Below, one piece after another: positions 28,069 to 35,263 of a stretch of 64,000 nucleotides of DNA. A program made the position numbers and the translations under genes. Origin of the DNA: Candidatus Dadabacteria bacterium (GTDB lineage Bacteria > Desulfobacterota_D > UBA1144 > Nemesobacterales > Nemesobacteraceae); the NCBI GenBank assembly GCA_022822065.1, contig JAJECI010000003.1, positions 62,001 to 126,000 of the forward strand, read 5' to 3'. Positions within the stretch are counted from its first letter, which is position 1; the number at the start of each line of letters is the position of its first letter. The notes under the pieces were generated by a model, which saw nothing but the letters and a program-made list of their open reading frames with translations, did no database searches and was not told where the DNA came from.

Positions 28069-28602
28069 ATGTCGTTCAGAAATTTCTTATGGGCAACGCA
28101 CACAGTTTTTCTGATTATATTCAGCTTAGTAGCTTGTGGTGGTGAAAGCGACTATAACTATGACTACGACGATGCTTATTACGAAATCGAGGGCACAATC
28201 TTAACCATTGTGGACTCCCAGTCCTTTCTTCTGGGCGATATCCTGGTAATTCACGGTCCTTCAACCCGGTTCGGATCCGGCGACGCCGACGACCTAGCCG
28301 TTGGCAGACGCGTAGAGGTTGAAGGTACCAGAATAAGCTCGGGAACCGTAGTGGCCAGAGAAATTGAGTTTGAAGATTGGTACTACGACGATGCTCATTA
28401 CGAAATCGAGGGCACAATCTTAACCATTGTAGACTCCCAGTCCTTTCTTCTGGACGATATCCTGGTAATTCACGGTCCTTCAACCCGGTTCGAATACGGC
28501 GACGCCAGCGACCTAGCCGTTGGCAGACGCGTAGAGGTTGAAGGTACCAGAATAAGCTCGGGAACCGTCGTAGCCAGAGAAATTGAGTTTGAGTATTGGT
28601 AA
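28069..28602 (+). CDS. lipoprotein with two near-identical DUF5666-like repeats
   Basis: 177 residues: lipoprotein signal with lipobox VACG (Cys about 23), an acidic Tyr/Asp spacer, then two copies of a 73-residue unit (YEIEGTILTIVDSQSFLL, DILVIHGPSTRF, LAVGRRVEVEGTRISSGTVV, AREIEFE). The unit reads as a small OB/beta domain of the DUF5666 kind, usually exported and of unknown function. The two copies differ at only a few residues, so the duplication is recent or kept identical by gene conversion. Confidence 0.78.
   Translation: MSFRNFLWATHTVFLIIFSLVACGGESDYNYDYDDAYYEIEGTILTIVDSQSFLLGDILVIHGPSTRFGSGDADDLAVGRRVEVEGTRISSGTVVAREIEFEDWYYDDAHYEIEGTILTIVDSQSFLLDDILVIHGPSTRFEYGDASDLAVGRRVEVEGTRISSGTVVAREIEFEYW
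28165..28383 (+). repeat. 219-bp tandem repeat, copy 1
   Basis: First unit of the in-gene duplication, starting TACGACGATGCT. Copy 2 starts at 28384. Period 219 bases, exactly 73 codons. Confidence 0.85.
28384..28599 (+). repeat. 219-bp tandem repeat, copy 2 (last unit cut short by the stop)
   Basis: Second unit; differs from the first by scattered single bases (for example GGCGATATC versus GACGATATC, TTCGGATCC versus TTCGAATAC), mostly changing Gly/Asp or Gly/Glu residues. Confidence 0.85.
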
Positions 28603-29304: not shown

Positions 29305-29347
29305 ACGTATGTTTGAACGAAACAACTGCAAATTCTCAATAACAATT

Positions 29348-30940
29348 ATGGCAAAAGTATCAAATGGAAAAGTAGGCAGAGAACAAGAACGAGCAGAATT
29401 GCACCGCACGATCTGGCAGATCGCCAACGATCTGCGCGGGAGTGTCGACGGTTGGGACTTTAAGCAATATGTGCTCGGGATGCTCTTCTACCGGTTCATC
29501 AGCGAGAACCTCACAAACTACATTAATGAAGAAGAGCGACGCACTGGAACTAAAGATTTTGATTACGCAACGCTTTCAGACAAAAAAGCTGAGTTCGGTC
29601 GAGATGACACAGTAAAAGAAAAAGGATTTTACATGCTCCCCAGCGAGTTGTTTGTGAATGTGGCAAAGAACGCACGCCACGACTCGGACTTGAACGAAAC
29701 GCTCGAGACTGTTTTCAACAATATTGAAAACTCTGCCAAAGGCACCGAGAGTGAGGACGACCTTAAGGGGTTGTTTGACGATATTGATGTCAACTCCGCC
29801 AAACTTGGCAATACCGTAGAAAATCGGAATCAGAAACTCACTAGGCTTCTTGAAGCTATCGGCGGGCTCCGTTTCGGCGATTATGCCGACAACTCCATTG
29901 ACGCTTTTGGTGATGCCTACGAGTTTCTGATGACCATGTACGCTTCAAACGCTGGAAAATCCGGTGGCGAGTTCTTCACGCCTCAGGAGGTCAGTGAGTT
30001 GCTTGCAGAAATTACTACCGTAGGCAAGAAAGAAGTGAATAAGGTCTACGACCCAGCTTGCGGTTCCGGTTCGCTACTACTCAAATTTGCCAAAGTCCTC
30101 GGCAAGGATAAGGTTCGGCAAGGTTTTTTTGGCCAGGAAAGCAACCTTACTACCTACAACCTCTGCCGTATCAATATGTTTTTGCACGATATCAACTACG
30201 AGAAGTTTGATATCGCACACGGCGATACACTTACTGATCCAAAGCATTGGGATGATGAACCGTTTGACGCAATCGTCTCCAATCCGCCCTATTCCATTAA
30301 ATGGGAAGGCAATGCGAATCCGATCCTCATCAACGACTCTCGCTTTTCTCCGGCTGGCGTGCTTGCGCCAAAGAGCAGAGCCGACCTTGCTTTCACAATG
30401 CACATGCTTTCATGGCTTTCCACGAGTGGCACTGCGGCTATTGTTGAGTTTCCGGGTGTACTCTACCGTGGCGGAGCTGAGCAAAAAATACGCAAGTATC
30501 TGGTGGAAAACAACTATATTGATACGGTTATTCAGCTTCCGCCTGACCTCTTTTTCGGAACCACTATTGCGACGTGCGTCATTGTGCTCAGAAAGAGCAA
30601 GAAGGACAATAAAACATTGTTCATTGATGCATCTGCTGAGTTCTTTCGTGGTGGCAACAAGAATACATTAAGTGAAGCAAACCGCGCTAAGATACTCGAC
30701 GCATTTACCAACCGTAAAGATATTGAACACTTTGCTGCTTTAGTTGACAACAAGATAATCTCTGAGAATGACTACAATATTGCTGTATCAAACTATGTTG
30801 AGGGCAAGGACACTCGTGAGGTGATAGACATTACTGAACTCAACAAGAAAATTGCGAAGATTGTTGTACGACAGCAAGAGTTGCGCGAGGCGATTGATGC
30901 TATTATCGGCGATATAGAAGGAGCAAATAGCAAGGAATAG
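29348..30940 (+). CDS. hsdM: type I restriction-modification system methyltransferase subunit
   Basis: N6-adenine methyltransferase subunit. 530 residues from ATG 29348 (MAKVSNGKVGREQERAELH); an upstream frame reaches 29309 but lacks support. N-terminal HsdM helical domain (LHRTIWQIANDLRGSVDGWD), SAM motif I VYDPACGSGSLLLKFA near residues 232-247, and catalytic motif IV SNPPYS near 310-315. With HsdS it forms the methylase (M2S), with HsdR the nuclease complex. All key motifs intact. Confidence 0.95.
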   Translation: MAKVSNGKVGREQERAELHRTIWQIANDLRGSVDGWDFKQYVLGMLFYRFISENLTNYINEEERRTGTKDFDYATLSDKKAEFGRDDTVKEKGFYMLPSELFVNVAKNARHDSDLNETLETVFNNIENSAKGTESEDDLKGLFDDIDVNSAKLGNTVENRNQKLTRLLEAIGGLRFGDYADNSIDAFGDAYEFLMTMYASNAGKSGGEFFTPQEVSELLAEITTVGKKEVNKVYDPACGSGSLLLKFAKVLGKDKVRQGFFGQESNLTTYNLCRINMFLHDINYEKFDIAHGDTLTDPKHWDDEPFDAIVSNPPYSIKWEGNANPILINDSRFSPAGVLAPKSRADLAFTMHMLSWLSTSGTAAIVEFPGVLYRGGAEQKIRKYLVENNYIDTVIQLPPDLFFGTTIATCVIVLRKSKKDNKTLFIDASAEFFRGGNKNTLSEANRAKILDAFTNRKDIEHFAALVDNKIISENDYNIAVSNYVEGKDTREVIDITELNKKIAKIVVRQQELREAIDAIIGDIEGANSKE

Positions 30941-30942
30941 TT

Positions 30943-32187
30943 ATGGTAAAACATATGAACAAAATTGAGAAATTGATCGCCGAACTATGTCCAAATGGTG
31001 TGGAATTTAAGGAACTTCAAGAAATATTTGACATTAAAAACGGTTACACCCCGTCAAAGAAAAATTCAGATTACTGGACGAATGGGACAATTCCTTGGTT
31101 TCGAATGGAGGATATACGCAAGAATGGTCGGACTCTTAGTGATTCTATTCAACACGTTACCCCACAGGCGGTTAAGGATGGTTATCTTTTTCCTGCAAAT
31201 TCAATCATTATCGCTACAACAGCAACCATTGGCGAGCATGCGTTGCTAACTGTTGATTCGCTAGCGAATCAACGGTTCACTTTTTTGAGTAAAAAAGTGA
31301 ACCGTTCTATTGACATGAAATTCATGTTCTATTACGGATATGTTTTAGGTGAGTGGTGTAGAAGCAACACTAACACTGCAAGCTTTGCCTCGGTAAACAT
31401 GAAAAAGTTTAAAAAATTTAAAATCCCCATTCCACCGCTTGCAATCCAAGAAGAGATCGTAAAGATCCTTGATACCTTTACAGAACTAGAGGCAGAACTA
31501 GAGGCAGAACTAGAGGCAGAACTAGAGGCAAGAAAGAAACAGTATGAGTATTATCGCAATGAACTATTGACGTTTAATCGGGGGGGGGGGAGGAGTATAG
31601 CGTTAGGGGAGATAGGGACCATGGTTAGAGGAAGTGGATTACAGAAAAAAGACTTTGTGGAGAGTGGTGTTGGTTGCATTCATTACGGTCAGATTTACAC
31701 CTATTATGGGACTTTTGCCGATAAAACAAAATCGTTTGTATCAAAAGAGCTAGCCAACAAGTTGAAGGAGGTTGAAAAAGGAGATTTGGTTATTGCCACT
31801 ACCAGTGAGAACGTTCAAGATGTCTGCAAAGCGGTTGCTTGGCTTGGAGAACAGGAGATTGTTGCTGGTGGAGACTTAGCGATTTTCAAACATAATGAGA
31901 ACCCCAAATATTTAGCATATTATTTTCAGACACCAAGCTTTGCGGATCAAAAAAGAAAGTATGCTAAAGGAACAAAAGTTATTAGAGTGTATGCGAAAGA
32001 TTTGGCAAAAATCAAAATCCCCATCCCACCGCTTGCTGAACAGAAACGCATTGTTTCCATCCTTGATAAATTTGAAGCGCTCGTAAACGACATTTCCATC
32101 GGTTTACCCGCCGAACTTGCCGCACGACGAAAGCAGTATGAATACTATCGCGGCAGGCTTTTAACATTCAATGAATATGTCAGTTAA
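30943..32187 (+). CDS. hsdS: type I restriction-modification specificity subunit, probably phase-variable
   Basis: 414 residues in two homologous halves, each a target-recognition domain plus a conserved coiled-coil: half 1 about 1-212, ending ARKKQYEYYRNELLTF; half 2 about 227-414, ending ARRKQYEYYRGRLLTF. Both carry KIPIPPLA. Each half should read one half-site. The central linker has four ELEA repeats (31483-31530). Between the halves an uninterrupted run of 11 Gs (31580-31590) encodes NRGGGRS. The sequenced length is in frame (full-length 'on'). Losing one G gives a stop after 218 residues; gaining one gives a stop after 228. A second ATG with AGGGGAG lies at 31621. Start at 30943 is supported by AAGGA six bases upstream. 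Confidence 0.93.
   Translation: MVKHMNKIEKLIAELCPNGVEFKELQEIFDIKNGYTPSKKNSDYWTNGTIPWFRMEDIRKNGRTLSDSIQHVTPQAVKDGYLFPANSIIIATTATIGEHALLTVDSLANQRFTFLSKKVNRSIDMKFMFYYGYVLGEWCRSNTNTASFASVNMKKFKKFKIPIPPLAIQEEIVKILDTFTELEAELEAELEAELEARKKQYEYYRNELLTFNRGGGRSIALGEIGTMVRGSGLQKKDFVESGVGCIHYGQIYTYYGTFADKTKSFVSKELANKLKEVEKGDLVIATTSENVQDVCKAVAWLGEQEIVAGGDLAIFKHNENPKYLAYYFQTPSFADQKRKYAKGTKVIRVYAKDLAKIKIPIPPLAEQKRIVSILDKFEALVNDISIGLPAELAARRKQYEYYRGRLLTFNEYVS
31252..31273. repeat. perfect 22-bp palindrome inside hsdS
   Basis: GTTGATTCG, central CTAG, CGAATCAAC: the whole 22 bases equal their own reverse complement. It lies in the first target-recognition half. Confidence 0.9.
31271..31306. repeat. perfect 16-bp inverted repeat with 4-base loop inside hsdS
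   Basis: AACGGTTCACTTTTTT (31271-31286), loop GAGT, AAAAAAGTGAACCGTT (31291-31306). All 16 pairs are perfect. It overlaps the end of the preceding palindrome by three bases, so the two form neighbouring hairpins in coding sequence. Confidence 0.92.
31483..31530 (+). repeat. four tandem 12-bp repeats in the hsdS central linker
   Basis: GAACTAGAGGCA occurs four times without a mismatch, encoding ELEA x4 in the helix that separates the two recognition domains. The unit is a multiple of three, so copy-number change would not shift the frame. Confidence 0.95.
31580..31590 (+). repeat. 11-G homopolymer tract in hsdS
   Basis: Eleven consecutive G residues in the coding strand, between the two half-subunits. 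Length change alters the reading frame (see hsdS entry). Confidence 0.95.
31605..31623 (+). promoter_or_regulatory. internal ribosome binding site and ATG for the second HsdS half
   Basis: AGGGGAG (31605-31611) is followed after nine bases by an in-frame ATG at 31621 (MVRGSGLQ). Translation from here would give a 188-residue C-terminal half-subunit. Confidence 0.5.
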
Positions 32188-35100
32188 CAATAAGTACAAT
32201 TTGGTAGTGGAGAATCCGCAGAGTACAGTCGTAGCGGAATATTCGCCGGAGAGAAGCCGCGCTGAGCAGTATCAAAGCGAGGCGGATCTTGAAAGCGCAT
32301 TTATTGAACAACTTGAATCCCAAGCGTACGAGTATCTGCCGATCACAGATGAAACCGATCTGATCGTAAACTTACGTACACAACTCGAGAAACTCAATGA
32401 CTACAATTTCAGCGACAGTGAATGGAAACGATTCTTTATGGATGAGTTGGCAAACTCTAACCAGAGCATTGAAGAAAAAACTGCAACAATCCAGGAAGAT
32501 TACATCAAAAACCTCACTCGTGACGATGGCTCAGTTAAAAACATCTACCTTCTCCGCAAGGACAACATTCACGACAATACGTTGCAAGTCATCAACCAGT
32601 ACTCAACCGACGAGGGTCAACGCGCAAATCGCTATGACGTAACCGTGCTGGTGAACGGATTGCCTCTGGTGCACATTGAACTCAAGCGTCGTGGCGTCGC
32701 TATTAAAGAAGCATTCAATCAGATCAACCGTTACCAGCGCGAGAGTTTCTGGGCTGCGTCGGGACTGTATGAATATGTCCAGCTCTTTGTTATTTCAAAT
32801 GGCACGCATACTAAGTATTACAGCAATACGACGCGCTCTCAGCACATCAAGGAAGCTAATGAGAGAGGAGTTAAGCGGGGCAAGCGTTCAAGCAATAGCT
32901 TTGAGTTTACGAGTTGGTGGGCGGATGCAACCAACAAGCCAATTACTGATTTAATGAATTTTGCGAAGACATTTTTTGCCAAGCACGCACTCTTGAACAT
33001 TTTGACCCGCTATTGTGTTTTCACGACCGACCGCCAACTCCTCGTGATGCGTCCATATCAGATTGTTGCAACTGAGCGGATATTGAACCGTATTGAAGTG
33101 AGTACAAATTATAAAAAACTCGGAAGTCTGGAGGCTGGTGGATACATCTGGCACACGACCGGATCGGGCAAGACGCTCACAAGTTTCAAAACGGCGCAAC
33201 TTGCGAGCAAGTTGCCGTATGTAGACAAAGTGCTGTTCGTGGTAGACCGAAAGGACTTGGACTATCAGACAATGAAGGAATATGACAAGTTCGAGAAGGG
33301 TGCTGCCAACAGCAATACCAGCACGAAAATTCTAAAGCGGCAACTCGAAGATCCGAACTCACGCATCATTATCACAACGATTCAGAAACTTGATCGATTC
33401 GTCGGGCGTAATAGAGGTCACACGATCTTTGAATGTCATGTGGCGCTCATTTTCGACGAATGCCATCGGTCGCAATTTGGTGATATGCACATAGCGATCA
33501 CTAGGGCGTTTAAGCAATATCATCTCTTTGGCTTTACCGGCACGCCGATTTTTGCGGTAAACGCTTCTTCTAGTAGCCGTGCTGACCTTAAGACTACCGA
33601 ACAAGCGTTTGGGGATAGATTACACTCGTACACTATCGTAGATGCGATTGCAGATAGAAATGTTCTGCCTTTCAAGGTCGATTATGTCTCAACGGTTCGT
33701 GAAGCGGAAGATATTGAGGATAAGAAAGTAAGCGATATTGACCGCGAGGCCGCGCTTGCTTCGCATGATCGTCTGGCGAATATTGTGGGTTATATTCGAG
33801 AACATTTTGATCAGAAGACCAAGCGAAACAGTTCATACAAGCTTAAAGACCGAAGACTTGCCGGGTTCAATTCAATTTTTACTGTTTCTTCGATTGAAGT
33901 AGCCAAAAAATATTATGCCGAGTTTAAGAAGCAGCTCGCAGACGTACCAAGCGACAAAAAGCTTAAAGTGGCATTGATCTACAGTTTTGGCGTAAACGAA
34001 GAGGATGTAGATGGGATGGTAGACGAGAACTCAGAGGATACGAGTGGACTTGATAAAAGTTCGCGGGATTTTCTTGAGAATGCCATCGCTGACTATAATG
34101 CGATGTTCGGAACATCCTATGGTACGTCTTCTGACAGGTTTCAGAATTACTACAAGGACGTAAGCGAGCGAGTAAAAAACCGAGAGATCGATATTCTCAT
34201 TGTAGTAAATATGTTTTTGACCGGATTTGATGCGACCACGCTCAATACTTTGTGGGTTGATAAAAACCTGCGATTACATGGACTGCTGCAAGCGTATTCG
34301 CGTACTAACCGCATTCTCAACAGCGTCAAAACCTTCGGGAATATCGTGTGTTTCCGAAACTTAGAGGAAGCGACAAACAAATCAATCGCCCTTTTTGGAG
34401 ACAAGGAAGCAAGAGGTATTGTCCTCCTGAAGGCATACGATGATTACTACAACGGATACAAAGATGGCGAGAAGGAAGTACGCGGCTACAAGAGTCTGGT
34501 TGAGGAGCTTCAGGATAAATTCCCTGTTGGCGAGCGTATCTTGGGAGAACAGAACCAGAGAGACTTTATCAAGCTCTATGGCGATATATTGCGCGTACAG
34601 AACATCTTGGTGACTTTCGATGAATTTGCCGGCAACGAAATACTCTCAGCCCGTGACCTGCAAGACTACCACAGCATGTACATAGACCTGTACAACGAAT
34701 TTCGCGGAGGCACTGAAAGCGAGAAAGAAAACATTAACGACGACTTGGTCTTTGAGATGGAACTTATCAAGCAGATAGAGATCAATATTGACTACATACT
34801 AGGGCTTATCAAAAAGTACCATGAAAATCACATCAAGGACCGAGAACTGCTGATTGATATTAAAAAGGCGATCAATTCAAGCGTTGAACTTCGGAATAAG
34901 AAAGACCTCATTGATCAGTTCATTGCAACACTTGATGTTCACTCTGTAGTAGATGATGACTGGCAGAAGTTTGTTGAAAAGAAAAAAATTGAAGAACTTG
35001 AGGATATCATTAAAAGCGAGGGACTGAATCATGACGAAGCATACGCATTTGTACGAAATGCATTCCGCGATGGAAATATTGCCACGACCGGTACAGCGAT

Positions 35101-35263
35101 CGCAAAGGTTTTGCCTCCGGTGTCTCGCTTCTCTCCGGGTGGTGAACGTACCCAGAAGCGAGAGAGTGTTCTCTCCAAACTGACGAACTTCTTTGATCGA
35201 TTCTTTGATATTTCCAAGAAGGAATTTGTTGTTCTTCATGAACAAAGTTATCCCTATCAATGA
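32171..35263 (+). CDS. hsdR: type I restriction enzyme, endonuclease/translocase subunit
   Basis: 1030 residues. N-terminal PD-(D/E)xK nuclease with HIELKRRGVAIKEAFNQINR near 167-187; then SF2 translocase: Walker A TTGSGKT near 328-334, DECHRS (DEAD-box variant) near 429-434, FGFTGTPIF, and the motif VI-like QAYSRTNRIL near 706-715. A helical C-terminal region contacts HsdM. The ATG at 32171 overlaps the hsdS end by 17 bases (ATG at 32177 is the alternative), so translation is coupled. No frameshift or motif loss is visible, so the restriction activity looks intact. Confidence 0.95.
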   Translation: MNMSVNNKYNLVVENPQSTVVAEYSPERSRAEQYQSEADLESAFIEQLESQAYEYLPITDETDLIVNLRTQLEKLNDYNFSDSEWKRFFMDELANSNQSIEEKTATIQEDYIKNLTRDDGSVKNIYLLRKDNIHDNTLQVINQYSTDEGQRANRYDVTVLVNGLPLVHIELKRRGVAIKEAFNQINRYQRESFWAASGLYEYVQLFVISNGTHTKYYSNTTRSQHIKEANERGVKRGKRSSNSFEFTSWWADATNKPITDLMNFAKTFFAKHALLNILTRYCVFTTDRQLLVMRPYQIVATERILNRIEVSTNYKKLGSLEAGGYIWHTTGSGKTLTSFKTAQLASKLPYVDKVLFVVDRKDLDYQTMKEYDKFEKGAANSNTSTKILKRQLEDPNSRIIITTIQKLDRFVGRNRGHTIFECHVALIFDECHRSQFGDMHIAITRAFKQYHLFGFTGTPIFAVNASSSSRADLKTTEQAFGDRLHSYTIVDAIADRNVLPFKVDYVSTVREAEDIEDKKVSDIDREAALASHDRLANIVGYIREHFDQKTKRNSSYKLKDRRLAGFNSIFTVSSIEVAKKYYAEFKKQLADVPSDKKLKVALIYSFGVNEEDVDGMVDENSEDTSGLDKSSRDFLENAIADYNAMFGTSYGTSSDRFQNYYKDVSERVKNREIDILIVVNMFLTGFDATTLNTLWVDKNLRLHGLLQAYSRTNRILNSVKTFGNIVCFRNLEEATNKSIALFGDKEARGIVLLKAYDDYYNGYKDGEKEVRGYKSLVEELQDKFPVGERILGEQNQRDFIKLYGDILRVQNILVTFDEFAGNEILSARDLQDYHSMYIDLYNEFRGGTESEKENINDDLVFEMELIKQIEINIDYILGLIKKYHENHIKDRELLIDIKKAINSSVELRNKKDLIDQFIATLDVHSVVDDDWQKFVEKKKIEELEDIIKSEGLNHDEAYAFVRNAFRDGNIATTGTAIAKVLPPVSRFSPGGERTQKRESVLSKLTNFFDRFFDISKKEFVVLHEQSYPYQ

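Follow-up and report, generated by a model that had tools for sequence, protein, structure and literature searches.

A tract of 11 G residues lies where the two halves of the specificity subunit gene hsdS join in the window, the whole 64,000-nucleotide stretch of Candidatus Dadabacteria DNA analysed here, and it raises the question of what this locus would produce were the tract to slip out of frame. An earlier note on this DNA held that two half-subunits would then arise, the second from an internal start at ATG 31621. The tract is located at the junction of the halves, but the evidence does not favour a second half-subunit from this ATG; the locus is instead read here as probably encoding an NgoAV-like slippage switch, whose products would be the fused HsdS in one state and an N-terminal half of 218-228 aa in the other.

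The hsdM-hsdS-hsdR operon spans positions 29309-35263 of the window on the + strand, and is comprised of the following genes and HsdS repeats:

29309-30940, + strand: hsdM, N6-adenine methyltransferase subunit (PF02384, 3.1e-114; HsdM_N, 9.9e-21); its start is uncertain, a later in-frame ATG being possible
30943-32187, + strand: hsdS, specificity subunit of 414 aa, fused as assembled (PF01420, 1.8e-53, in two stretches)
30991-31527, + strand: first Methylase_S repeat of HsdS, TRD1 and spacer helix (PF01420, 2.8e-38)
31600-32118, + strand: second Methylase_S repeat of HsdS, TRD2 and distal helix (PF01420, 2.4e-15)
32171-35263, + strand: hsdR, restriction/translocase subunit (PF12008 EcoR124_C, 1.1e-67; HSDR_N, 2e-44)

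When the sequences of the subunits were compared with solved structures, the chain closest to HsdM was the M chain of EcoR124II (7bst_D, 1.1e-190), while the R chain of the same system (4be7_B) matched HsdR at 1.2e-254; all five of the best matches of HsdR (8.5e-255 to 4.4e-254) are to HsdR chains of full length, among which one is named EcoR124II R. EcoR124 subunits are thus the nearest solved relatives in sequence of both HsdM and HsdR, and the second nearest of HsdS, for which the S subunit of M. jannaschii (1yf2_A, 6.8e-43) precedes that of EcoR124II (7bst_A, 1.5e-39). By fold, 1yf2_A is again the better match of HsdS, and 7bst_A ranks fourth among 14 matches with E values up to 0.001. The fold matches also include an S-like chain of approximately 190 residues, Esub1; a search with the names Esub1 and paratox returned nothing on Esub1 among the matches listed. 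Taken together, the subunit matches identify a complete type IC (EcoR124-like) operon.

A further type IC feature, a four-residue tandem repeat, is found inside the central spacer helix:

31483-31530, + strand: four 12-bp repeats, GAACTAGAGGCA, encoding ELEA four times in the spacer helix, similar to TAEL or LEAT

Across 34 aligned HsdS sequences, the window's included, the spacer is 20 residues long in 20, 24 in 13 and 16 in one, changing by four-residue steps. The 12-bp repeat probably sets the length of the spacer, hence the gap between the two half-sites, and it would do so separately from the G tract. EcoR124I and EcoR124II likewise bear a 12-bp repeat encoding a four-residue unit in the spacer helix, although they are described with two or three TAEL units (PMC3874165) as opposed to four ELEA units here, and the window has a poly-G tract whereas none is mentioned for EcoR124 in the accessible parts of PMC3874165 and PMC3320862. 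A congener of the window's genome, G009, displays three 12-bp repeats (GAGCTAGAAGCA three times) compared to four in the window.

The tract follows just past the spacer helix that closes the first half of HsdS, and is the only run of at least seven G residues in the window. At 11 G the hsdS gene is in frame across it; at other lengths, one of two stop codons would close the first half:

31580-31590, + strand: 11-G tract where the two HsdS halves join
31598-31600, + strand: TAG closing the first half at 10 or 13 G (218 or 219 aa)
31626-31628, + strand: TAG closing the first half at 9 or 12 G (227 or 228 aa)

The end of the stop codon lies 10 nt past the tract in the 10-G form and 38 nt past it in the 12-G form, and the second TAG overlaps the surroundings of ATG 31621 in the string ATGGTTAG. 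This arrangement, in which the first half closes with a poly-G tract whose length decides between a fused and a truncated HsdS, is that of NgoAV (PMC9577141; PMC6789123). The two systems also share a four-residue repeat upstream of the tract, LEAT in NgoAV and ELEA in the window (PMC6789123), and each has its hsdM, hsdS and hsdR at a single locus (PMC9577141; PMC6789123). They differ in that the FA1090 allele of NgoAV is reported with 7 G and is truncated, whereas the window carries 11 G and is fused as assembled; moreover, NgoAV belongs to another organism, N. gonorrhoeae, and has other alleles.

The proposed switch would begin with the gain or loss of one G in nature. At 10 or 12 G, the product would be an N-terminal half-subunit, 218 or 228 aa long, bearing TRD1 and the complete spacer helix; two such halves would pair to recognize a symmetric site in which the TRD1 half-site occurs twice, whereas the fused HsdS would recognize a bipartite TRD1/TRD2 site. 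The second half would not be required as a separate protein. In NgoAV, the 208-aa HsdS1 is reported to recognize GCAN8TGC and the fused form GCAN7STCA (PMC9577141), the latter motif being printed as GCAN7STGC in PMC6789123, which attributes the motif jointly to the LEAT repeat count and the poly-G tract. Lone N-terminal half-subunits are also described as forming active enzymes of symmetric specificity in the EcoDXXI truncations and in EcoR124INT (PMC3874165; PMC3320862), although these arose by transposon insertion or engineering and not through a slippage tract; the engineered EcoR124 N-half is described as active both as a methyltransferase and in the endonuclease (PMC3320862). Similarity between the helices is thought to allow N-halves of type IC systems to pair (PMC3874165), and in the window the two HsdS halves end in helix regions that share 60% identity over 62 aa. 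The N-half switch is favoured because of this helix identity, because the subunits are of type IC, because of the tract with its frames and stops, and because of the NgoAV and EcoR124 N-half precedents.

The out-of-frame forms might instead lack any active specificity subunit, making the tract a plain on/off switch. NTHi hsdM and type III mod genes are described as switching in this way (PMC7394358), and 43 of the 92 ngoAV loci considered in gonococci were assessed as encoding no active enzyme, owing to extra hsdS1 mutations in addition to the frameshift (PMC9577141). However, the N-half of the window's HsdS looks complete, the tract sits at the very end of this half-subunit, and N-halves of type IC systems are reported to be active in NgoAV, EcoR124 and EcoDXXI (PMC9577141; PMC3320862; PMC3874165), making the on/off reading unlikely.

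The tract length in the window derives from one assembly and is the sole length of this allele seen, so that the tract could in principle be of fixed length in nature, or misassembled, with no biological switch at all. Thirteen loci (the window's included) with at least 8 G after a QYEYY motif were compared, leaving out second copies of one locus and also L119, whose match falls at the end of its stretch. As assembled, 11 of these are fused and two are split, namely G009 (9 G) and L117 (8 G; from the order of a Bacteroides genome), although 11 of 13 is no estimate of a natural ratio since the ranking of relatives by score favours fused genes. The second half is open in both split loci, and because both halves are open in each, they too favour a switch between fused HsdS and an N-half. 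The two 9-G tracts of G009, one in hsdS and one in hsdM, each come into frame with one extra G, which could reflect a common sequencing error and would suit the absence of any switch. Against this, junction tracts of at least 8 G recur in all 13 loci, many pairs of which are only 29-66% identical over the second half, and a tract that does not switch is accordingly regarded as highly improbable.

Searches with the poly-G pattern, which requires QYEYY at a fixed distance and therefore misses other spellings and distances, matched 2 of 57 genomes in the window's own class (its own and G009). In the orders to which a Bacteroides, a Campylobacter and a Craterilacuibacter genome belong, the pattern matched 3 of 393 genomes (counting the Bacteroides genome), 1 of 149 (the Campylobacter genome itself) and none of 250, respectively, and it also matched one viral contig. 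The genomes behind the related loci matched in 9 of 12 cases, and the three that did not include two (L026 and L045) that do possess a junction tract. Similar junction tracts occur in loci whose titles name Bacteroides, Prevotella, Flavobacterium, Spirosoma, Fibrobacter, Clostridia and Campylobacter, and given this variety, a switch between fused HsdS and half-subunit may exist across many phyla. According to a 2020 account, simple repeats are present in almost 10% of type I systems, and NgoAV was the hsdS case that had been demonstrated (PMC7394358). The NgoAV arrangement of a poly-G switch with a four-residue spacer repeat is now placed in a lineage outside Neisseria; the window's class contributed only 57 of the genomes searched.

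The proposal of a second half-subunit is based on two elements downstream of the tract:

31605-31611, + strand: SD-like AGGGGAG, also within Leu-Gly-Glu codons (duplex -8.3 kcal/mol)
31621-31623, + strand: in-frame ATG, codon 227 of the 414-codon open reading frame and proposed internal start

Both are present as the earlier note had described: AGGGGAG is separated by nine bases from the ATG, which lies in the reading frame of the second HsdS half and would yield a product of 188 aa. In the 10-G and 12-G forms, this is also the first ATG, GTG or TTG available to the second half, the next being GTG 31657. Ribosomes terminating out of frame might thus re-initiate at ATG 31621 and produce a C-terminal half of 188 aa that works beside the N-half. 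The stops are suitably placed for coupling of this kind, with TAG 31598-31600 lying 20 nt before the ATG and TAG 31626-31628 just behind it. An E. coli-type anti-SD applies, because the 3' end of the 16S rRNA from the same genome carries GGATCACCTCCTTT, and the duplex computed before ATG 31621 (-8.3 kcal/mol) is better than those at the hsdS (-5.4) and hsdR (-5.7) starts of the operon. A duplex at least as strong precedes 15 of the 291 internal in-frame ATGs counted across 58 open reading frames of the window, which do not overlap, are at least 120 codons long and were chosen mechanically without annotation. Among these 58 frames, 12 have a duplex of this strength at one or another of the first three start codons, as do about 10% of all positions in hsdS. 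The SD-like signal before ATG 31621 is fair but not rare, and exceeds chance only weakly.

Comparison with relatives offers a different account of these elements. The 80 relatives used are the best 80 of 302 by score, a selection that favours fused genes, and they comprise 11 with a poly-G tract at the junction and 69 without; L026 and L045, whose junction tracts fall outside the expression that defined the 13 loci, are counted among the 11, while L062, whose 8 G lie at another place in the gene, and L006, which has 8 C, are counted as tract-free. AGGGGAG falls within TTA GGG GAG ATA, encoding Leu-Gly-Glu-Ile, and LGEI is how recognition domain 2 usually begins in relatives from genome contigs. 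The Gly-Glu pair is spelled GGN GAR in 36 of the 69 tract-free relatives and in 5 of the 11 with poly-G. The protein thus accounts well for the SD-like string, which serves as a caution that such a string after the junction can be ordinary HsdS coding sequence. Ahead of the position that aligns with Met227, a duplex at least as strong as -8.3 kcal/mol occurs in 28 of the tract-free relatives and in none of those with poly-G. Met227 itself is not conserved in the alignment of the 80 relatives, where the residue at this position is F in 59, I in 9, L in 8, M in two (only one of them among the 69 tract-free), and D and R in one each.

Start codons near the junction give a mixed picture. An ATG just after the junction is found in 8 of the 11 poly-G relatives compared to 26 of the 69 others (two-sided p 0.047), which would suit re-initiation; four of those eight (L016, L019, L026 and L036) carry an identical MKMSE sequence, and the second halves of L016, L019 and L036 share 92-96% identity. 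Counting any start codon near the junction, the figures are 11 of 11 and 54 of 69 (one-sided p 0.085), and a start with an SD match as strong as that in the window is not enriched (2 of 11 compared to 17 of 69). Among the 13 poly-G loci no common internal start was found. The first in-frame ATG after the tract lies at +30 in the window, +29 in L033, +33 in L008 and L025, and +18 or +19 in four Bacteroidales-type loci (L016, L019, L036 and L118), but at +104 in G009, +114 in L117, +179 in L071 and +360 in L017, and it is absent in L056; nearer GTG or TTG codons are located at -1 in G009 and L071, +42 in L017, +15 in L056 and +23 in L033. The two split loci weigh against re-initiation in particular, as L117 has no start codon of any kind before +114 and G009 has only a GTG at the end of the tract before its ATG at +104. 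An internal start as a conserved element was rejected, as Met227 is not kept and the poly-G loci share no common start.

The stops downstream of the tract were considered in the same relatives as a possible sign of selection for clean truncation. Out-of-frame stops follow at a median of 13.5 nt in poly-G relatives compared to 27 nt in the others (one-sided p 0.03), and both out-of-frame stops fall within 40 nt in 8 of 11 compared to 32 of 69 (one-sided p 0.10); these statistics ignore relatedness, and this weak sign was set aside.

The predicted structure of HsdS (AlphaFold2; 34 sequences, mean pLDDT 90.0, pTM 0.66) also bears on the 188-aa product. In this model, recognition domain 2 opens with a strand (residues 218-220), a turn (221-224) and a second strand (225-229), with counterparts in domain 1 in the same order at residues 22-24, 25-28 and 29-33. 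Met227 would lie in the middle of the second strand, such that a protein initiated there would lose strand 218-220 and turn 221-224 and would begin within strand 225-229. Likewise, the 188-aa product matches the Methylase_S profile only from position 53, whereas the first half matches from position 1. The model thus argues against a product with a whole recognition domain, although a partly working half is still conceivable.

Precedents for a working C-half come chiefly from EcoDXXI, where the separate N and C halves are reported to work together and the C-half alone to specify a palindrome of its own half-site (PMC3874165), so that C-halves as such can work. In addition, one gonococcal strain may encode an active HsdS2 that is elongated at its 5' end (PMC9577141). 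The split NgoAV arrangement, which the earlier note had invoked as a precedent for two half-subunits, speaks against that analogy, since its second half is described as inactive and its first half alone as conferring the new specificity (PMC9577141). Among the titles listed in searches of a library in which most subscription papers are absent, none concerned an internal start of a second half of HsdS, a weak sign that such a start is undescribed. With Met227 found in only 2 of 80 relatives, a domain predicted to be cut and no common start in poly-G loci, re-initiation at ATG 31621 to give a working C-half is quite unlikely, and the ATG is most likely an incidental methionine codon. A second start would also weaken the switch, because a C-half that was made and worked would re-form the original bipartite enzyme; co-expressed halves tend to restore the fused specificity, as those of EcoDXXI are reported to do (PMC3874165). 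Alternatively, coupled re-initiation at ATG 31621 in both out-of-frame forms could yield some C-half too, such that the tract would switch between a single enzyme and a mixture of N-N, N-C and perhaps C-C pairs in one cell, which is considered very unlikely. For the favoured switch between fused HsdS and the N-half, a change of specificity would need the N-half only, by analogy with NgoAV, in which the first half suffices. The earlier proposal that the out-of-frame forms alter specificity without abolishing methylation may therefore stand by this precedent, but not by way of two half-subunits.

The congener G009, of the same genus, carries the same operon on contig C184, with hsdS split at its 9-G tract. 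Its recognition domains differ in each place from those of the window, and its first HsdS half is 44% identical to the window's first half. The window's TRD1 (30994-31446) instead resembles the second recognition domain of G009 (L084; 89% over residues 18-168), and because the first domain of one is the second of the other, recognition domains appear to have moved between positions. The hsdM gene of G009 (L103, G009:C184:1-6000) is out of frame at its further 9-G tract, and the window's hsdM has no tract at the equivalent place (near 30299). This tract may possibly represent an on/off switch atop the specificity switch, or an assembly error common to both genes.

Elsewhere in the window's own genome, seven runs of at least nine G or C residues are present. 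By eye, those at L144 and L147 fall at the start of long open frames that have a signal-peptide-like segment and common repeats, and that at L134 falls in a 127-codon frame with a similar start; these three are located on contigs C3 and C10, and slippage switching of surface proteins is possible at each. Within the window, a small open reading frame at 28069-28602 displays a lipoprotein-like start and two near-identical copies of a domain (YEIEGTILTIVDSQSFLL...).
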